Shown here piece after piece: positions 5,238 through 13,742 of a stretch of DNA of 64,000 nt (position 1 is the stretch's first letter; each line of letters opens with the position of its first letter). The position numbers were made by a program, and so were the translations under genes. Under the pieces are notes generated by a model. It saw only the letters and a list, made by a program, of their open reading frames with translations. It ran no database searches and was not told the DNA's origin. This stretch comes from Thermocrinis minervae (GTDB lineage Bacteria > Aquificota > Aquificia > Aquificales > Aquificaceae): assembly GCF_900142435.1 (NCBI RefSeq), contig NZ_LT670846.1:1082750-1146749 (forward strand), in the 5' to 3' direction.

Positions 5238-5243
5238 TATAAT
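5238..5243 (+). promoter_or_regulatory. TATAAT -10 element at the head of the island
   Basis: A perfect TATAAT lies in an AT-rich stretch just after pgsA, 27 nt before the ATG at 5271, with a strong AAAGGAGGG ribosome binding site (5255-5263) between. No convincing -35 was identified. Confidence 0.5.
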
Positions 5244-5279
5244 TTCTTTCATCCAAAGGAGGGTGTGGGTATGAGAAGA
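5243..5279 (+). repeat. QRRVWV box, copy 1
   Basis: First copy of a repeated element with core aaaggagggtgtgggtatg. In one frame it reads FIQRRVWV followed by a TGA that overlaps the next ATG. Here no effector ORF precedes it, so it may be all that remains of one. It carries the ribosome binding site of the exported-protein gene at 5271. Confidence 0.7.
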
Positions 5280-5858
5280 ATAGCGTTATTAACAGCGGTG
5301 TTGATAGTTGTTTTGGCTTTTGTTAGGGTTGGTCTTGGAGAGGATGGAATCTTCAAGTTTGAAAACGGGATATGGTATTTAGATATAGATGATAATGGCA
5401 TAAAGGATGTGGTTATCTGTGGAGAATATTTTACACCTTGGGGAGGCAATATTTATAAGGCTTGTTCTTTTTATTTGAGGACTAAAGAAGGAAAATTATT
5501 CTATATACCTATACCAGCAGAAGGTAACAAAGGGTCAGAAGTAAGTGTTTATACATACTCAAAAGTTGGTGGTTGTGGAAGTAGAATTAATAAGGAGGAA
5601 ATTACGAATCTCTCAAGCTTTAGGCTTATCAAATTAAATAGTGGTGTCTATCTAATACTTGCTAAAAAAGATTGTAAATCTATTGAAAAAATGATTAACA
5701 ATAAATGCCCTTTTAATGTTGTTATATTTAAATACGACCAAGAAGATAAAACCTTTTTAAAGTATAAAACTTATGAGTTAAATAAGCCTTATTGTGACAG
5801 TGAAGAAGTTTTTAAAAATGAGAATAAAATTCTGAAATTATTAGATGGAGGTAGATAA
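5271..5858 (+). CDS. Exported hypothetical protein of the island, candidate immunity protein
   Basis: 195 residues from the ATG at 5271, chosen because GGAGG sits 8 nt upstream; an in-frame GTG at 5265 lies too close to it. The N-terminus ([20 protein letters not shown]) is a signal peptide of the kind shared across the island, ending near GLGED. The mature part is lysine- and cysteine-rich (at least six Cys, including KVGGCGS and KKDCKS), fitting a disulfide-bonded periplasmic protein. I do not recognise a family. It lies 2 nt before an NNPGN/LysM effector gene, so a protective role is inferred from position only. Confidence 0.75.
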
Positions 5859-5860
5859 AA

Positions 5861-6706
5861 ATGGGAAGAGAAGTTGTAAAGGCAGAACAAAAAGGTAGAA
5901 GTGTCTATTACTACTATTCGGATGGAACTTATGAAATAAAAAGCGGGAATAATATTGCCATAAAGACAAACAATCCTGGAAATTTAGTTGAAGATACGCT
6001 TGAAGGTAAAAAATATGGAATCGGCGTTTATGATAGAGGTGATGGAGTTCATAAATTTGCTATATTTCCAGATTTAGAAACAGGGGAAAGAGCTTTACGG
6101 GAATACCTTTTAAGGAAATATAGAGATCAGACGATTGAAGATTTAATGTATAAATATGCTCCACCAGAGTATAACAACACAGAGGCCTATATTCAAACCA
6201 TTGAAAAGGTCGGGATTAATAGAAATTCTAAACTAAGCGATCTAAATCAAGAGCAATTTAATATTCTGGTAGATACAATAATAAAAGTAGAGTCTGGAGG
6301 TAAATTAAGGTCTATTAATTCACAAACTAATCCTATTTCTGGAGATTCTTTGTATAACTCTCTCCCCACCAACCCCCATACCTACACCGTCCAGCCAGGG
6401 GATACACTTTCAAAGATAGCAAAAAGGTATGGGTTAAGTCTTGATGAGCTAATTAAGGCAAATCCTGGGATAAAGGATCCAAATCTTATATACCCTGGGC
6501 AGAAGATAAAAATCCCTGGCTATGCAGAAAAAACTCGCTCCAATCTTAGGGAGGGCACTCGCAGAATTGACCCCCTTGTGATAGACCTTGACGGAGATGG
6601 GATAGAACTGACAGATATTAAAGACTCCACTGCCATGTTTGACATCTCTGGCTCTGGTTTTGCAAACAGGGTTTATAATCTTACTCAGAGGAGGGTGTGG
6701 GGATGA
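5861..6706 (+). CDS. Peptidoglycan-targeting effector: NNPGN muralytic domain, LysM, truncated Ca-binding module
   Basis: 281 residues without a signal peptide. Residues about 34-145 resemble the NNPGN-type domain of phage-associated peptidoglycan hydrolases (TNNPGN at 36-41, [28 protein letters not shown]). Residues 174-218 are a clear LysM peptidoglycan-binding domain ([19 protein letters not shown]). Residues 221-271 match the start of the EF-hand module in the 10202 effector ([15 protein letters not shown]), but the protein then jumps directly to the tail [10 protein letters not shown]. This looks like an internal deletion of the calcium-binding module. The stop overlaps the next ATG (ATGA). 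Muralytic activity is inferred from family resemblance. Confidence 0.82.
6521..6673 (+). repeat. Effector core repeat, copy A
   Basis: This segment encodes [11 protein letters not shown] through [14 protein letters not shown] to SGSGFANRV and is nearly identical at DNA level to 10697-10861. Copy A lacks about 12 bp (four codons) just before DPLV. It marks the shared module of the two effectors and is long enough to support homologous recombination between them. Confidence 0.9.
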
Positions 6707-6711
6707 GAAGG
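6673..6711 (+). repeat. QRRVWV box, copy 2
   Basis: The box encodes effector tail [10 protein letters not shown] and contains TATAAT at 6674-6679, exactly 23 nt before the ATG at 6703. It also holds the GAGGAGGG ribosome binding site for that gene, and the effector stop overlaps the start (ATGA). Confidence 0.8.
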
Positions 6712-7314
6712 GTATGTGAGGTATTGGCCTTTATCATATTACTTTTTTTAAATTTTTTAAACCCTCTTTATGCAGAAACCATCGAATCAGTAGGAGAAAA
6801 TACCGAACATTTAACAGAGTTTATATGTGGTAATGCTATTGTAAAAGTATTAACTCATTGTGTTTATTGTGAAGATTTACCTCCATTTTGTGTATCTGAT
6901 AAACAGTATATTGTTTTGAAAAACATTTTAAGTGATAGGAAACAAATCTTGCTCTCATCTTCTCCAACATACGCTGGAGAAAAATATGCATTTTTGAACA
7001 AAGAAAAAGTTAAAGGAAAGCGTATTTTACAGTATTTGATAGTAGAAGTAAGCTGTTACAAGGCAAAAACTGATAACAAGTATTATATTGAATTAAGTTA
7101 TTACAACGGTGGCAATTGCGAACAATGTGAATATTTTGAACTTTATAATGATGAAGGAAAGTTGATACTAACGGATAGAGAAAAAATTTTCTATAAACCT
7201 AAATCATTTCAATTTAACAAAATTTTAAAGAAATATGCCCTTGAATATAAAAAATTCAAATTAGAAGGTATAAAAAATTTGGAAATAAACCCATGCAGGA
7301 GGGATAAATCATGA
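6703..7314 (+). CDS. Exported Cys-rich protein, paralogue of the 11871 gene, candidate immunity protein
   Basis: 203 residues from the ATG at 6703, which overlaps the effector stop. A signal peptide runs to about LNPLYA. The mature protein is paralogous to the 11871 product: both share SSSPxY, a xVSCY or xVMCY strand, [16 protein letters not shown] versus YYRGGNCAECTYLEVY, and xxSDREKI or TDREKI. Several Cys pairs ([15 protein letters not shown]) suggest disulfides. It directly follows a muralytic effector and is translationally coupled to it, so a cognate periplasmic immunity role is the simplest reading, though no known family supports it. Confidence 0.8.
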
Positions 7315-7424
7315 AAAGAAAGACTCATTTTTATGAGCCTATTGATCGCACTCCAGGAAGACTTGCAGGTAATAATTTCATCCAAAGGAGGGTGTGGGTA
7401 TGGGAAAAGTGGGTAGGTTTCTAA
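7311..7424 (+). pseudogene. Effector remnant: start region fused to QRRVWV tail
   Basis: A 37-codon frame begins at an ATG overlapping the previous stop (ATGA), with GGAGGG upstream. It runs [20 protein letters not shown] and then directly into [10 protein letters not shown]. The lack of any domain between a well-initiated start and the effector tail suggests an internal deletion. The original domain is not recognisable. Unlike the other copies it reads past the next ATG, stopping about 20 nt inside the following gene. Confidence 0.5.
7371..7405 (+). repeat. QRRVWV box, copy 3
   Basis: This copy has AATAAT (one mismatch to TATAAT) at 7371-7376, 23 nt before the ATG at 7400, followed by AAAGGAGGG. 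It encodes FIQRRVWV in the remnant that begins at 7311. Confidence 0.75.
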
Positions 7425-8344
7425 CTGTATTTCTTCTTTTACTCCTTTTAACACTTTCTACTTATGTTTATGCAGAGCAAAAAGAAACAGTTAGTCTTGA
7501 GTATGTAGGAACTATAAAAAATATTCCTAATTTATATTTTGAAGAAAATCCGTTTTATCCTTCTAAACCTGTTTTGGTGTCTAAAAACTATCTGGTGGTT
7601 AATACTAAACAAGATGATAAATACGGAGTGTTTATTCTTGGTTTAGACGGTAAAATATATTTGCATAAAAAAGATGTAATTGCTACGTCTGTATCCCAAA
7701 ACAGTAGATATTTTATTTTGGAAAGTACAGATTCCAAAAAAATGAAAACAACTAAAGAATGTGAATACGGTTATGCTACGTCTATCTATATTTTTGACGC
7801 TAAAGATGTGAATAACATAAAACAAATAGCAAATTTCAAAGCATGTAGTTTTAATTATGCATTCTCTCCTAATGGAGAATACTTAGCTCTTACAGTTCCA
7901 AAAAATAACTTAAACAGAGAAGAAAATATACCATTTAAATTATTTCAACTCCACAATCTATATGTAAATGGCTGGATTAATGATGAAACTATAATAGTAA
8001 ATAAAATTATAAAGTCTAAAGGATCAATAGAAGTTGAGCCACATGGGGATTACTACTATCGTAAATTTTATTATATGGGAATTAAAAAGGGCTCACAAAT
8101 TGAATTTACATCTGGATTATTACAGATTTTACAAGTTGCAAAGGATAAACTAATTTTTAAAGATTATAACAACTGCAAACTTTTTTCTCATGATATGGGA
8201 CAAATTTTAGCATGTGCCCTGTATGTATATGATTTTCAAAAACGAAAAAAACTACTTGCTGGATATGAAAATGAGTATTATACTTTTTCGCAGCTACAGC
8301 TTTTGAGTTTAGTAATAGATGAAAAAAAGCAACAAATTGAATAA
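7400..8344 (+). CDS. Exported beta-propeller-like protein, N-terminal part (frameshifted)
   Basis: 314 residues from the ATG at 7400, with a signal peptide ending near STYVYAEQ. The mature part has repeated strands reminiscent of TolB/WD40-type propellers (YFILESTDSKK, IYIFDAKDVNNIKQIANF, YAFSPNGEYLALTVPKNN). The frame ends shortly after an A7 tract (8312-8318) in a region with no natural domain end, and the following ORF continues the same style of sequence in the +1 frame. The two are probably one gene split by one extra A. Its position behind an effector remnant suggests an orphan immunity or periplasmic sensor gene; function unknown. Confidence 0.7.
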   Translation: MGKVGRFLTVFLLLLLLTLSTYVYAEQKETVSLEYVGTIKNIPNLYFEENPFYPSKPVLVSKNYLVVNTKQDDKYGVFILGLDGKIYLHKKDVIATSVSQNSRYFILESTDSKKMKTTKECEYGYATSIYIFDAKDVNNIKQIANFKACSFNYAFSPNGEYLALTVPKNNLNREENIPFKLFQLHNLYVNGWINDETIIVNKIIKSKGSIEVEPHGDYYYRKFYYMGIKKGSQIEFTSGLLQILQVAKDKLIFKDYNNCKLFSHDMGQILACALYVYDFQKRKKLLAGYENEYYTFSQLQLLSLVIDEKKQQIE

Positions 8345-8558
8345 GCCAGCAAAAGTTTTGTTTTATAAATGGGATGATGGATTTAAATATTTAGGAGCGG
8401 TTCAATTAAGCTCAGGCTACGCTACTAAAAAGACTCTCCTTCATCCTTATATATCTCCAGATGAATCTATTGTAGCATTTCCAATCATAACAAATATTTT
8501 AAATGTTGGACCTAATTTTTACATTGATATCTATAAACTTAAAATTGAAAGGAGGTAG
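8319..8558 (+). CDS. C-terminal part of the frameshifted beta-propeller-like protein
   Basis: A 79-codon frame (VLFYKWDDGFKYLGAV, YISPDESIVAFPIITN, YIDIYKLKIERR) that continues the propeller-like pattern of the 7400 ORF in the +1 frame. SPDESIVAF parallels SPNGEYLAL in the first part. The nominal start has no ribosome binding site and overlaps the upstream frame just behind A7. I read it as the displaced 3' end of that gene, not an independent protein. Confidence 0.6.
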   Translation: MKKSNKLNKPAKVLFYKWDDGFKYLGAVQLSSGYATKKTLLHPYISPDESIVAFPIITNILNVGPNFYIDIYKLKIERR

Positions 8559-8563
8559 GAAAA

Positions 8564-8686
8564 ATGAACTACAATCCTGGACCACAATTTAGAAAAACCT
8601 CAGGTTATGGAAGGCGAATACACCCGATAACAGGCAAGCCAAATAGGTTGCTATATAATTTTACTCAAAGAAGGGTGTGGGTATGA
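8564..8686 (+). pseudogene. M23 peptidase effector remnant fused to QRRVWV tail
   Basis: A 40-codon frame with a strong AAAGGAGG site upstream. It contains SGYGRRIHPITGK, the typical opening of LytM/M23 endopeptidase domains, just before the first zinc-ligand histidine of that family. It then passes directly into NRLLYNFTQRRVWV, matching the tail of the 10202 effector. The catalytic domain has been deleted in frame, while the start signals and the TGA/ATG overlap with the next gene are intact. Confidence 0.65.
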
Positions 8687-8689
8687 AAA
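8651..8689 (+). repeat. QRRVWV box, copy 4
   Basis: This copy has TATAAT at 8654-8659, 23 nt before the ATG at 8683, and an AAAGAAGGG ribosome binding site (one change from the other copies). Its similarity to copy 5 extends upstream through taggttgc, so both derive from the same effector C-terminus. Confidence 0.8.
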
Positions 8690-9624
8690 AGGTTTTTAAA
8701 AACTTTGTTCTAACGGTTGTTTTGGTTTTGGCGTTTGTTAGAGTTGGTTTTGGGGAGGAAAAACAGGGAGGGCAAATTGAGAAAAAATACCCTCCGTATC
8801 CTGATGTATGGGAATGGATGTTCCCTATAGAGAAGGGTACATACATTGCCCCTTCCTTGATAAAATTACAAACTGGTGATTATGTAGTTATAAAAAGAAG
8901 ATTTATAGGTGCTACAATTACAAGTGAAAAAAGTATTCCAGTTGCCTGTTATCTTCTTTTTGAAAATCAACAATTACCAATGGATGAATGCGAAAAATTA
9001 CATGACTGTGCCATATACAATAAAAACTGTGATTTTCTTAAACAGAAGAATGCCAAGATTATCGAAGAGTCTTACCTTAAAGATGAATTTCCTATATACA
9101 GTGGTGACGTTATGCTTGATCTTGGTGGCATAAGCATGGGCTCTCCTAAATGCTCAATGGGATACAAATCAATTGTATTAAAGAATGTAAAAGAGAATAA
9201 AATTATCTTATCCGTTGTGCCTGTTTATCTTTATGATAAGCCTATAAAAGTATATATAAATCCTTATTGTGAATGGAATTGGGACTATAACTATAGTAAG
9301 GATTATATTCTCTCACCGATCTCATTCGGAGATGTTTTTTCGGGTATTTATCCCTTAGAAGATGGCAATTTTCTGATGAAGATTAATATGGGAAAAAGCG
9401 GTGTGTACTTTATAAGATTCGACAGTATGATGCAGACAAAAAGTTCTATAGTTGGAAGAAGAATTTTCTTCATTAAAGAGGATGAATTCAAGAAGTTAAT
9501 GTTTAAACAAGTAAATGTCCGAGAAGATGAGCTGCATCCCTATAGTGATTACGAGATATATAAGAATATTTTAAACTACATCAAATCTAAATACTTAAAA
9601 AACTCAAAAGGGGGTAAACCATGA
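8683..9624 (+). CDS. Exported hypothetical protein, candidate immunity to an M23-type effector
   Basis: 313 residues from the ATG at 8683. Its signal-peptide DNA is almost identical to that of the 11871 gene ([21 protein letters not shown] versus RNFVLTVVLVLTFIGIGFGQE), while the mature parts are unrelated. The mature protein is aromatic-rich with several Cys (MDECEKLHDC, YNKNCDF, NPYCEWNWDY). It follows the M23 remnant and overlaps the next gene (ATGA), forming a pair with the 9621 membrane protein. No family is recognised; the immunity role is inferred from context. Confidence 0.75.
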   Translation: MKKVFKNFVLTVVLVLAFVRVGFGEEKQGGQIEKKYPPYPDVWEWMFPIEKGTYIAPSLIKLQTGDYVVIKRRFIGATITSEKSIPVACYLLFENQQLPMDECEKLHDCAIYNKNCDFLKQKNAKIIEESYLKDEFPIYSGDVMLDLGGISMGSPKCSMGYKSIVLKNVKENKIILSVVPVYLYDKPIKVYINPYCEWNWDYNYSKDYILSPISFGDVFSGIYPLEDGNFLMKINMGKSGVYFIRFDSMMQTKSSIVGRRIFFIKEDEFKKLMFKQVNVREDELHPYSDYEIYKNILNYIKSKYLKNSKGGKP

Positions 9625-9649
9625 ATAACTATATGACTGAAGAAAAGCC
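9613..9649 (+). repeat. MNNYMTEEK repeat, copy 1
   Basis: A ggtaaacc leader plus the first codons of the 9621 gene, duplicated at 12499-12545 after another exported-protein gene. Confidence 0.75.
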
Positions 9650-10199
9650 AATCATGGTTTTAAAATATCAACCATTAAGAGTTATAAGTTTTATTATGTT
9701 TCTAGGAATACCTGCTATAGGAATGGGTTTTATAGGATTATTATTTATGTCTAAAGAACACTCTAAAAATCTATTTGATTACTATTTCGTAAAATATTTT
9801 GGCTCAGTTTGGATTATTATAATAGGGAGTTATTTAGTTATTGATTTAGTTAATACAGATAGGATAGAACTATATAAAAATAAGATTGTAAAGATATACC
9901 GAATACCATTGTTTAGTGATAAGAAAGAGATTTATTTAAATAATGATACTCATATCTTTATGACTTGGTCTAGTATCAGATTATACGATAAAAAGCCTAC
10001 TATTACAAATAGGATAATAAGTTTTCTTTTTATATTTTTCAGCAATGCATTTTTTATTCACATAAATAGGTTTAATAAAAAAGACCAAGAACGATTTGCT
10101 GACTTTTTATCAGAAATTTCAGGAAGGCCTAAAGAATATTTTTTGTATAGATCTGATAGCTCTATAAAACCTTTAATTATCAAAAACAAGGAGGTTTAG
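9621..10199 (+). CDS. Small membrane protein of the island (two helices)
   Basis: 192 residues. The ATG overlaps the upstream stop (ATGA). Two hydrophobic segments lie near residues 21-47 and 62-80, followed by a basic cytoplasmic-looking part (KKEIYLNNDTHIFMTWSSIRLYDKK) whose strands recall bacterial PH-like domains, and a third hydrophobic stretch near RIISFLFIFFSNAFFIHI. The family is not recognised. Its first ten or so codons recur at 12507 behind another exported-protein gene, so an exported protein plus membrane protein pair seems to be a repeating unit of the array. A membrane-located immunity function is inference. Confidence 0.72.
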   Translation: MNNYMTEEKPIMVLKYQPLRVISFIMFLGIPAIGMGFIGLLFMSKEHSKNLFDYYFVKYFGSVWIIIIGSYLVIDLVNTDRIELYKNKIVKIYRIPLFSDKKEIYLNNDTHIFMTWSSIRLYDKKPTITNRIISFLFIFFSNAFFIHINRFNKKDQERFADFLSEISGRPKEYFLYRSDSSIKPLIIKNKEV

Positions 10200-10201
10200 G
10201 T

Positions 10202-11293
10202 ATGGCAGAGCAAAGAAATAATAATCAGGAAAATATTGTGGATGCAATGAAACCTACTCCTATGGACATTCCATCAAGCTTAAACACTTTTTTATCAGCA
10301 TTAGCTGAAAAATCTCTTGATAAACTTATAGGAGAGAGTGAGCAATTTATAGATACAAGGGCATTACCGAATGCATTAGCTACTAAGTTTACTGCTATTG
10401 ATCTATTGATGACATATGTTTCTTATGAAGAAAAACTACAAGAAGGTAAGACAAAACAAGAAGCTATAGGAGAAGCTTTAGCAGAAACTTTAGGTGGAAC
10501 TTTGGGAGGAGCTGTAGGTGGATCTCTTTTTGGACCTGTTGGAGCAGTTGGAGGAGCTTATATTGTTTCACGAGTTGGTTTATTTACCTGGGATAAATTT
10601 ATGGATTTTCTTAAAGCTTTAGCGGAATGGTCGGTACAGAGGGAATCAGAAGAGTCAATCCAAACGGAAATAAACACGGAGCAGAATGTTAATTCATATG
10701 CCGAAAAAGCTCGCTCCAATCTCAGAGAAGCCACACGTATCATTCCTCTTATATTTGACCCCCTTGTGATAGACCTTGATGGAGATGGGATAGAACTGAC
10801 AGATATTAATGACTCCACTGCCATGTTTGACCTTTCTGGCTCTGGGTTTGCAAACAAAGTGGGATGGATAAGCAAGGATGATGGATTTTTGGTTTTGGAT
10901 AAAAATAACGATAACAGAATAAACGACATCTCTGAGATGTTTGGAAATGCCACTCAGTCTGGCTTTGCTATGCTTTCTCTTTATGACACAAACAGAGACG
11001 GTAGAATTGATGCCTTTGATGATGTGTTTAAGAACCTCAAAGTATGGCAGGACAAAAATGCAGACGGAAGAACTGATGAAGGAGAGCTTAGAAGCCTCTC
11101 TGAGCTTGGAATAAAATCCATAAACTTAAACACTAAAAAGACAAACATAAATCAAGGTGGAAACCAGATAACAGAGATAGGTACAGTTGAAAAGGAAGAT
11201 GGCACAAAAACGCAAGCTGGCAATGTGAATTTTGAGCTTGATAGGCTTTATAGGTTGCCATATAATTTTACTCAAAGGAGGGTGTGGGTATGA
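10202..11293 (+). CDS. Effector with glycine-zipper segment and EF-hand/RTX-like Ca-binding module
   Basis: 363 residues without a signal peptide, preceded by AAGGAGG. Residues about 90-127 form a small-residue-rich hydrophobic stretch (LGGTLGGAVGGSLFGPVGAVGG), a glycine zipper typical of membrane-inserting peptides. Residues 186-300 carry four acidic calcium-binding loops: [40 protein letters not shown] and DKNADGRTDEGEL. This module is known from large RTX/hemolysin-type secreted proteins. The C-terminus is YNFTQRRVWV. The stop overlaps the LprI-like gene start. Secretion by a type I system and pore formation are plausible but unproven, and no secretion genes are nearby. Confidence 0.8.
   Translation: MAEQRNNNQENIVDAMKPTPMDIPSSLNTFLSALAEKSLDKLIGESEQFIDTRALPNALATKFTAIDLLMTYVSYEEKLQEGKTKQEAIGEALAETLGGTLGGAVGGSLFGPVGAVGGAYIVSRVGLFTWDKFMDFLKALAEWSVQRESEESIQTEINTEQNVNSYAEKARSNLREATRIIPLIFDPLVIDLDGDGIELTDINDSTAMFDLSGSGFANKVGWISKDDGFLVLDKNNDNRINDISEMFGNATQSGFAMLSLYDTNRDGRIDAFDDVFKNLKVWQDKNADGRTDEGELRSLSELGIKSINLNTKKTNINQGGNQITEIGTVEKEDGTKTQAGNVNFELDRLYRLPYNFTQRRVWV
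10697..10861 (+). repeat. Effector core repeat, copy B
   Basis: The long copy of the shared effector core (see 6521-6673), encoding YAEKARSNLRE to SGSGFANKV. It continues into an intact EF-hand module, which copy A lacks. Confidence 0.9.
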
Positions 11294-11299
11294 GAAGGG
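11261..11299 (+). repeat. QRRVWV box, copy 5
   Basis: TATAAT at 11261-11266 lies 23 nt before the ATG at 11290, with AAAGGAGGG between. It encodes the intact effector tail YNFTQRRVWV, whose stop overlaps the next start. Confidence 0.85.
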
Positions 11300-11721
11300 T
11301 TTTTAAAAGCCTGGTGTTAGTGTTTGTTTTGGTTTTTGTTTTTGTTGTGGTTAGCTTTAGTGAAGAAAAACAAGAAAAGCATCCTATTGATGTATGGCTT
11401 GAAAAATGTATAGAGAAAGATTCTTCAACTGCTGAAATGATAAACTGCTCCAATAAAGCTTATGAAATGTGGGATAAAGAGCTCAATAGAGTATATCAAG
11501 AACTTATGAAAAAGCTTTCTCCAGAAGAAAAGGAATTACTTAAAGAAAGCCAAAGGCAATGGCTTAAGTTCAGAGATGCAGAGTTTAGGTTTATAAATCA
11601 AATATATGGATATGAAGGTGGTTTTTATCATACACAAAGAATAGGTAGCAAAATTGACTTGGTTAGAGAGAGAGTTTTACATCTATTGGATTATCTAAAA
11701 GAAAAAATGATTTCTAATTAA
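11290..11721 (+). CDS. LprI-family (DUF1311) lysozyme-inhibitor-like exported protein
   Basis: 143 residues from the ATG at 11290. A signal peptide occupies residues 1 to about 24. The mature part is an LprI/DUF1311 domain: Cys40 and Cys53 frame the conserved MINCSNKAYEMWDKELNRVY, followed by SQRQWLKFRDAEFRF. Members of this family include periplasmic or surface inhibitors of lysozyme, giving a functional argument that these exported genes protect against muralytic effectors. It is translationally coupled to the 10202 effector and followed by a GH108 muramidase remnant. Whether it inhibits either is not shown by the sequence. Confidence 0.9.
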   Translation: MRRVFKSLVLVFVLVFVFVVVSFSEEKQEKHPIDVWLEKCIEKDSSTAEMINCSNKAYEMWDKELNRVYQELMKKLSPEEKELLKESQRQWLKFRDAEFRFINQIYGYEGGFYHTQRIGSKIDLVRERVLHLLDYLKEKMISN

Positions 11722-11733
11722 GGAGGCATAGCC

Positions 11734-11826
11734 ATGGATGTATTCATGATGGCTCTTAAGTTTACAAAAAAGGCTGAAGGGGGATATGTAAATGATCCTG
11801 ATGATCCGGGTGGTCCTACGAAATAA
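11734..11826 (+). pseudogene. GH108 muramidase remnant (N-terminal 30 codons)
   Basis: A 30-codon frame with AAGGAGG upstream. It contains the opening of the glycosyl hydrolase 108 family, FTKKAEGGYVNDPDDPGG, including the catalytic-type Glu of the EGGY motif, then stops after PTK. The next 44 nt hold no continuation of the family. Another effector truncated to its start region, directly before an exported-protein gene. Confidence 0.65.
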
Positions 11827-11870
11827 AGATTTGATTATTAATGGACAAGGAAAGTTAGGAAGATATTGGT

Positions 11871-12503
11871 ATGAGAAGGGTTTTTAGAAACTTTGTTCTA
11901 ACGGTTGTTTTGGTTTTGACATTTATCGGGATTGGCTTTGGGCAGGAAAACCTAAAACCAAGAATAGATTATCAAGTAGTAAAAAGATTAGATTGTAAAC
12001 ACCTTAAAGTAACTCTAACTACTCACTGTCTCATTGAGGTTATGAATTCGGCATACAGAACATGTTTAGCAGATGATCAATATGTCCTTATAACAAATGA
12101 AAAAGAAAGCAAAAAACTAATAAACTCATCATCACCTAAATACAGCTTTGATATGTTTTCTGAATTTGTAGACGAAAATGAAGATATTGTTAATAAGAAG
12201 TTAAAGGATAAAAAAGTTTTAGATTATGAAATTTCAGAAGTGATGTGTTATACGGATAAAAAAGGGAAACCATACATAGGACTTGAGTATTACAGAGGAG
12301 GTAACTGTGCAGAGTGTACATACTTAGAAGTTTACGATGAATTTGGCAATCTTGTCATTTCAGATAGAGAGAAAATATCGCTAAGTAGAAAGAATCTTCC
12401 TTATAGTGAATATCATACTAAATTGAGACAAATTGCAAAAAATACAAAAAATAAAATGAAAAAGCTCGGTTTAGTAAAAGTTAAGAGTATAGAAGGGAGG
12501 TAA
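11871..12503 (+). CDS. Exported Cys-rich protein, paralogue of the 6703 gene, candidate immunity protein
   Basis: 210 residues; signal peptide MRRVFRNFVLTVVLVLTFIG. The mature domain is paralogous to the 6703 product, with aligned TTHC, SSSPKY, EVMCY, YYRGGNCAECTYLEVYDEFGN and SDREKI. The gene lacks the QRRVWV box of the other copies; its ribosome site is a weaker AGGAAG at 11857-11862. Two members behind two different hydrolases (NNPGN/LysM and GH108) suggest that this family protects against glycan-strand-cleaving enzymes, an inference from synteny only. Confidence 0.8.
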   Translation: MRRVFRNFVLTVVLVLTFIGIGFGQENLKPRIDYQVVKRLDCKHLKVTLTTHCLIEVMNSAYRTCLADDQYVLITNEKESKKLINSSSPKYSFDMFSEFVDENEDIVNKKLKDKKVLDYEISEVMCYTDKKGKPYIGLEYYRGGNCAECTYLEVYDEFGNLVISDREKISLSRKNLPYSEYHTKLRQIAKNTKNKMKKLGLVKVKSIEGR

Positions 12504-12506
12504 ACC

Positions 12507-12632
12507 ATGAATAACTATATGACAGAAGAAAAGCTAATCGCGGTTACGCCGCAGGCTTGTAAGACACTCTTTTATTATCTGTTCTTCCAGGATTTCGTAC
12601 AGGTCCAATATGTGAGTTCTCCTACCTTCTAG
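12507..12632 (+). pseudogene. Truncated copy of the 9621 membrane-protein gene
   Basis: The ggtaaaccatg leader and first codons (MNNYMTEEK) repeat those of the 9621 gene. Similarity ends near 12545; the frame then reads antisense through the selA remnant to a TAG at 12630. This marks the right-hand junction of the island with older chromosome. Confidence 0.6.
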
Positions 12633-12761
12633 TATCTCTTTCCTGAAGCTTTCCAACACTTTCCTGGCAGCGCTCTTTATGTAAACTTCTGGGTATTTGT
12701 CTCTGTACCTTTCTACGAGCTTTAATACTTGGGGCAGTTCCTTCAACAGTTCCTTTTTCAT
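12534..12761 (-). pseudogene. selA: selA 5' remnant (selenocysteine synthase N-terminal domain)
   Basis: A 75-codon frame starting MKKELLKELPQVLKLVERYR, with IKSAARKVLESFRKEILEGR and ending SLRRNRD. This resembles the N-terminal domain of L-seryl-tRNA(Sec) selenium transferase, where LRR is normally followed by the conserved VINATG motif opening the PLP domain. Here the sequence changes to island DNA at that point (near 12545), so the PLP domain is missing and the gene cannot make a working enzyme. The identity call rests on about 70 residues. It is divergent from the COG2187 kinase gene. Confidence 0.55.
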
Positions 12762-12764
12762 GTG

Positions 12765-12770
12765 TATAAT
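12765..12770 (+). promoter_or_regulatory. TATAAT -10 element for the COG2187 kinase gene
   Basis: A perfect TATAAT ends 9 nt before the GTG at 12780, implying a leaderless or nearly leaderless transcript. On the other strand TAACAT (12774-12769) is placed similarly for selA. Confidence 0.55.
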
Positions 12771-12779
12771 GTTAGCACC

Positions 12780-13742
12780 GTGGGGCTCATAGAGTACCTA
12801 AGCAGAGATCTTGGGGCAAAGGTAGTCCAAACCCACGCAAGCTGGGTGCTAATAACTCCGGACGTGGTCTACAAGATAAAAAAGCCTGTAAACTTTGGAT
12901 TCCTAGATTACTCTACCCTTGAGAAGAGAAAGGAAAATTGCCAAAAGGAGGTGATCCTAAACAGGAGGCTATGCCCTAACATCTACCTGGGGGTTGTTCC
13001 CATCAGCTTGGTAGACGGCAGGTACATGCTGGAGGATGACTCAAACGTGGTGGAGTATGCGGTCAAGATGAAGAGGATCCCAGAGGATAGCCTTCTTATA
13101 AACAGACTTCCAAGAACTACGCAGGAAGATGTAAGGATGGTGGCAAGGCTTTTGGTGGACTTCCATGCAAAGGCTGAAAGGAGGGACGAATGGGGAAGGC
13201 TTGAGGTGATGGAGTTTAACACGGATGAGAACTTTGTGCAAACGGAGAAGTACGTGGGCATAACCATAGAAAGAGAGGCATACAACTACATAAAAAAGAG
13301 GGTGGAGGAGTTTTACACTAAATACGAGGATATCTTTGAGAAGAGAATAAGGGAGGGCAAGATAAGGGATGGTCATGGGGATATAAGACTTGAGCACATA
13401 GCTTTTTTGAAAGAAGGGGTGTGCATATTTGACTGCATAGAGTTCAACGACAGGTTTAGGTGCGGAGATGTGATAAACGACATGTGCTTCCTCTCCATGG
13501 AGCTTGATTTTTACTCAAGGAGAGACCTATCGGAAGCATACGAAGAGGAGTACAAAAAACTTTCCAAGGATGAAGACTTTGACCTGCTTTTGAACTTCTT
13601 CAAAAGCTACAGAGCGTATGTAAGGGGAAAGGTCTACAGCTTCATGCTGGATGATCCACAGGTGGAGGATAAGGAAAAGTACAGGGACCTAGCCAGGAAG
13701 ATGTTTGCCCTCAGCCTGGAGTACACCAAGAGGATGCCCTAA
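12780..13742 (+). CDS. COG2187 aminoglycoside-phosphotransferase-fold kinase
   Basis: About 320 residues from the GTG at 12780. Upstream in-frame starts would place the TATAAT inside the gene. The protein-kinase-like fold is seen in VYKIKKPVNFGFLDYSTLEKR (nucleotide-binding Lys), DGHGDIRLEHI (catalytic loop, HGD) and IFDCIEFNDRFRCGDVINDMCFL (metal-binding region). This fits the COG2187 family of uncharacterised small-molecule kinases, often annotated as aminoglycoside phosphotransferase family; the substrate is unknown. The stop overlaps the convergent TPR lipoprotein gene by 4 bp. Confidence 0.85.
   Translation: MGLIEYLSRDLGAKVVQTHASWVLITPDVVYKIKKPVNFGFLDYSTLEKRKENCQKEVILNRRLCPNIYLGVVPISLVDGRYMLEDDSNVVEYAVKMKRIPEDSLLINRLPRTTQEDVRMVARLLVDFHAKAERRDEWGRLEVMEFNTDENFVQTEKYVGITIEREAYNYIKKRVEEFYTKYEDIFEKRIREGKIRDGHGDIRLEHIAFLKEGVCIFDCIEFNDRFRCGDVINDMCFLSMELDFYSRRDLSEAYEEEYKKLSKDEDFDLLLNFFKSYRAYVRGKVYSFMLDDPQVEDKEKYRDLARKMFALSLEYTKRMP

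Follow-up and report, generated by a model that had tools for sequence, protein, structure and literature searches.

Loss of selenocysteine (Sec) has happened many times in bacteria. In Yersinia pestis CO92/Mediaevalis, selB carries a frameshift, selA, selC and selD are present and formate dehydrogenase O contains a UGA codon, a situation interpreted as a very recent loss of Sec decoding (PMC1273633). In Helicobacter pylori, the PLP catalytic part of SelA is kept under purifying selection and the tRNA-binding N-terminal domain is lost (PMC4607533); in orphan SelD organisms, selD persists without other working selenium-use genes (PMC5029168). The case reported here, of which no published description was found in the literature searched, concerns Thermocrinis minervae (Aquificaceae), in which a stretch of 64,000 nucleotides (hereafter the window) contains the 5' part of selA joined to an A+T-rich island. 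At a probability of about 0.9, this joint belongs to a fossil of the Sec-decoding trait in a genome that recently stopped using selenium.

As in Yersinia pestis, selC, selD and a selenoprotein gene with a UGA codon persist although a machinery gene is broken; unlike in that organism, where selA is present, selA, selB, fdhA and mnmH have all been cut by deletions, and the stranded UGA is that of selD itself rather than that of formate dehydrogenase. Yersinia pestis CO92 is thus an earlier stage of the same process. Helicobacter pylori likewise holds a partial SelA in a lineage without Sec decoding and selenouridine, but as a mirror image: the catalytic part is kept there, and only the N-terminal domain and selC are kept here. 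The orphan SelD organisms share with this genome a selD without other working selenium-use genes, and differ from it in that its selD is the undecodable UGA (Sec) form and remains of the partner genes are still visible.

Table 1. Features of the selA locus (positions in the window) and selenium-related genes elsewhere in the genome (positions on the single contig, prefixed C1).
Feature	Position	Strand	Basis
A+T-rich island with cassette genes (LysM protein, RTX-like calcium-binding protein, LprI-family protein, signal-peptide proteins)	5242..12545	+	G+C (44-47% in the flanks), repeats, Pfam
Intact paralogue of the MNNYMTEEK gene that is cut at the joint, 192 aa, without Pfam match	9621..10199	+	
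Truncated MNNYMTEEK gene copy	12508..12633	+	sequence; 70-nt repeat
75-aa ORF (selA relic plus island-derived codons)	12534..12761	-	ORF list
Island-derived tail of the 75-aa ORF (codons N-R-D and stop)	12534..12545	-	sequence; 70-nt repeat ends at 12545
Junction of island cassette gene and selA	12545..12546	.	repeat end meets start of SelA similarity
selA relic, codons 1-72, tRNA-Sec-binding N-terminal domain without catalytic domain	12546..12761	-	tblastn/phmmer/alignment
Promoter-like site TCAACA-16-TATAAT	12743..12770	+	consensus scan, 10/12 positions
Conserved kinase-like gene, transcribed away from the selA relic, start codons 18 bp apart	12780..13742	+	
selB remnant	C1:433721-434304		
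fdhA (Sec formate dehydrogenase) remnant	C1:533301-533599		
selC (tRNA-Sec), intact	C1:533609-533704		
selD	C1:622652-623554	-	
mnmH (selenouridine synthase, ybbB) relic	C1:643881-644436		

Residues 1-72 of the 75-aa ORF match SelA of 12 genomes of the family at 38-56% identity (best E = 7e-24, or 1e-23 in a separate comparison with relatives), share their start methionine with the relatives' SelA in the alignment and, in a phmmer search of the PDB, retrieve SelA 3w1h at E = 1.7e-11. This similarity runs as far as SLRR, and in all six aligned relatives the VINATG motif follows directly. On the island side of the joint, a direct repeat of 70 nt at 80% identity (9590-9659 and 12476-12545) duplicates the MNNYMTEEK leader, and its last similar base directly adjoins SelA sequence, so that about 13 leader codons are fused to antisense selA in a 41-codon chimeric ORF; G+C steps at the same place from 26-41% in the island to 43-47% in the flank. 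An earlier note, made from the letters of the window, had claimed the SelA match up to SLRR, the switch to island sequence exactly before VINATG and the duplicated leader at the joint, and the searches bear it out on each. Against Pfam, the 75 residues give no SelA match, and a scan of the genome with PF12390 returns a single unrelated weak match, located elsewhere; the Pfam models used miss the SelA N-terminal domain of the relic. An assembly error at the joint is argued against by the one-contig genome, rated 100% complete, and by the agreement of relics at three other places.

The remaining selenium genes were sought in the whole genome (1,367,821 bp, 1.37 Mb) and in 40 relatives, 41 genomes altogether. 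A search of this complete genome yields no candidate for the SelA catalytic core, which is intact in 12 of the 40 relatives; the fragment is a relic and not a working SelA, and the second selA elsewhere that had been offered as an alternative is excluded. The selB remnant consists of an N-terminal piece of about 75 residues (71-77% identical to relatives) and a C-terminal piece of about 115 residues (58-60%), lying in different frames with about 385 codons deleted, and no SelB above the cut-off occurs in the genome. A stump of ~100 codons represents fdhA, made of three collapsed pieces that correspond to residues ~134-160, ~187-198 and ~321-408 of a relative's frame; whether formate dehydrogenase uses UGA or Cys, a comparison that the note had proposed, can be read from the relatives: the five that match in full (~1020 aa) each have one UGA. 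The mnmH relic shows a stop as well as frameshifts and an internal deletion, and the loss of selenium use therefore extends from the Sec pathway to selenouridine. There is no match in the genome to SepSecS (PF05889, archaeal-type Sec synthesis), and the best match to YqeB (TIGR03309, selenium-cofactor trait) reaches 23.3 bits, with the cut-off at 220. That the bacterial Sec pathway has been lost, as had been deduced from the selA locus, is thus supported by the absent SelA core, the internally deleted selB, the fdhA stump and the lack of SepSecS.

Two components persist, which the note had listed for a search without foreseeing their survival. Directly downstream of the fdhA stump, selC scores 73.6 bits against a cut-off of 47, has the anticodon TCA (ARAGORN: tca), shows no evident damage in the alignment and keeps G73, a requirement of tRNA-Sec (PMC5330540). 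The selD frame reads MELLRLVRASG-UGA-AAKVGPADLEK... and stays open for 329 codons beyond the UGA; its product is 55-66% identical to the UGA-SelD of relatives, and a SECIS-like hairpin, GGUCC-GGC-GGACC, is present behind the UGA. With selA and selB reduced to fragments, no known decoder is left for this UGA. The first in-frame alternative start is a GTG four codons past the UGA, and a SelD begun there should be inactive, as it would lose the Sec position and the adjacent Lys (C17 and K20 in E. coli SelD). The intact selC and the open selD frame, both directly observed, could also mean retained function.

Genomes with a strong selC are the 12 with selA and this one, which makes it the only one among the 41 searched with selC but without selA. 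Aquificaceae with an intact Sec trait (G002, G005, G008, G010, G016, G022 and others) have the same genes, among them tRNA-Sec, selD with UGA in an SGU motif and, in those checked, UGA-containing fdhA. Their selA is intact throughout, as is selB in all but the draft G005, while only selC and the selD frame survive in the present genome. G005, a draft of 60 contigs, has selA, selC, UGA-selD and UGA-fdhA and no selB match over the cut-off, which may reflect a gap in the assembly or a further case of incipient Sec loss. Three genomes of one genus (G001, G011 and G019) have selD without selA; in G001 and G011 the selD UGA is replaced by Cys and mnmH is present, an orderly way to lose Sec yet keep selenouridine.

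The age of the loss was gauged by a divergence ratio, the mean distance between this genome and its relatives divided by the mean distance among the relatives. The ratio is 1.01 for selA, 1.13 and 0.96 for the N- and C-terminal pieces of selB and 1.08 for selD, compared with 1.12 for the kinase-like gene used as control; the fdhA relic, at 1.28, is more diverged than the other relics, in a value that includes misaligned ends. Since the relics are no more divergent than a live control gene, the loss is recent, and, with ratios near that of the control, the surviving pieces have not drifted. Decay has so far proceeded by deletion and not by point mutation, except in mnmH with its frameshifts and stop.

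The kinase-like gene beside the relic, which we take to be COG2187-like, carries an HGD motif, was found in 30 of the 41 genomes and has no match in Pfam or NCBIfam. It adjoins selA in this genome only and stands at none of the relatives' selA loci examined, which rules out that the relic was carried along with this neighbour. One possible, if rather doubtful, reason for the survival of the selA 5' end, compatible with the recent loss favored here, is that it carries the promoter of this divergent gene: the promoter-like site partly overlaps the first selA codons, points at the kinase-like gene and lies 10 bp upstream of its start. The site is, however, a consensus match, of which the scan gave four in the region where shuffled sequence would be expected to give 1.3, and it could explain no more than ~20 bases at the start of the relic.

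The island itself contains a 40-nt repeat, CAAAGGAGGGTGTGGGTATGAGAAG, at 5242-5281, 6674-6713, 7371-7410, 8654-8693 and 11261-11300, in each place bridging a gene end (QRRVWV) and the beginning of the following signal-peptide gene; it looks like a recombination seam in a cassette array of secreted-protein modules, and the left island edge is one of its five sites. A further truncated cassette is the short frame MDVFMMALKFTKKAEGGYVNDPDDPGGPTK (window 11730-11870), which stops after ~30 codons and presumably resembles the beginning of a lysozyme of the glycosyl hydrolase 108 type. A related cassette cluster exists in G008, a genome of the same family (G008:C1:1287000-1306000, at about 9200-11000 within that stretch), with an RTX-like protein 61% identical, an LprI-like gene and an MNNYMTEEK-like gene; it adjoins a gyrB-like gene.

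Insertion of the island into selA, destroying the gene and thereby triggering the loss of the other selenium genes, would explain why the island edge falls within selA and coincides with the jump in G+C. Such an event predicts the missing ~380 selA codons on the far side of the island, and they are found neither at its left edge nor anywhere in the genome; moreover, the last island gene is truncated at the very same point, and selB, fdhA and mnmH carry deletions of their own without island sequence. We consider this course of events unlikely. The proposal in the note that the island replaced the catalytic part of selA thus finds only partial support, and is weakened by the cut through the island's last gene and by the lack of a selA 3' piece at the other edge. 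As the 3' part is missing from the island gene and from selA alike at one joint, it is simpler to assume that one deletion brought the two convergent genes together, and this fits better than an island insertion; an insertion followed by a deletion may fit the joint equally well. The loss need not stem from the island at all, because the deletions that removed selB, fdhA and mnmH are separate ones and have no island close to them. In the intact loci of relatives, a comparison with which the note had suggested, selA lies between genes that, from reading of the sequences, we take to be polX-like and engB in a Hydrogenobacter-like relative, and beside selB in others. Gene order around selA is not conserved among the relatives, and the state before the deletion is thus not reconstructable.

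Could the relic instead be a small tRNA-Sec-binding protein with a new role, paired with the intact tRNA-Sec? The 75-aa fragment ends exactly at a domain boundary, it is through its N-terminal domain that SelA binds the D-arm and T-loop of tRNA-Sec (PMC4607533), selC is intact and the fragment is no more diverged than live genes. The same facts are, however, explained by a recent loss, the selB, fdhA and mnmH fragments follow no domain logic and the last three residues of the fragment derive from the island, so that we regard this role as very improbable. Equally remote is a retained RNA-protein pair of SelA N-domain and tRNA-Sec without Sec, and/or a reading of the selD UGA by Ser-charged tRNA-Sec, either of which would constitute a new use for an orphaned UGA-reading tRNA. 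That Sec decoding still works through other components and SelD is made, as an intact selC and a selD frame with UGA and hairpin might suggest, is hardly credible given the absence from the genome of a SelA core, a SelB above cut-off and SepSecS and the destruction of the clients fdhA and mnmH.

Under the preferred reading of a recently lost trait, the ancestor would have had selA, selB, selC, UGA-selD, a Sec formate dehydrogenase and a selenouridine synthase, like the relatives. The need for formate dehydrogenase would have gone, and then, or at that time, fdhA, selB, mnmH and selA would have lost their middles or ends to deletions. At the selA locus, a single deletion probably took the 3' part of the last island gene on the plus strand together with that of its convergent neighbour selA on the minus strand, leaving 72 selA codons. 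tRNA-Sec and selD, which are probably without function, would have yet to decay; with its UGA undecodable by any known bacterial route, SelD would end after 11 residues. From these remains we infer an order of events, and the pattern suggests that client enzyme, elongation factor, synthase and selenouridine enzyme decay first, by deletion, and the tRNA and selD last.

In summary, this genome is a well-preserved case of a known and ordinary evolutionary process, caught at an informative stage; what sets it apart is that almost all selenium-use genes can still be seen together as remains, and that the UGA within selD leaves this gene stranded. A selenophosphate synthetase can thus be stranded by a UGA codon of its own gene, the organism is a natural setting for a UGA-reading tRNA that lacks its elongation factor, and selC or selD alone is an unsafe marker of selenium use.
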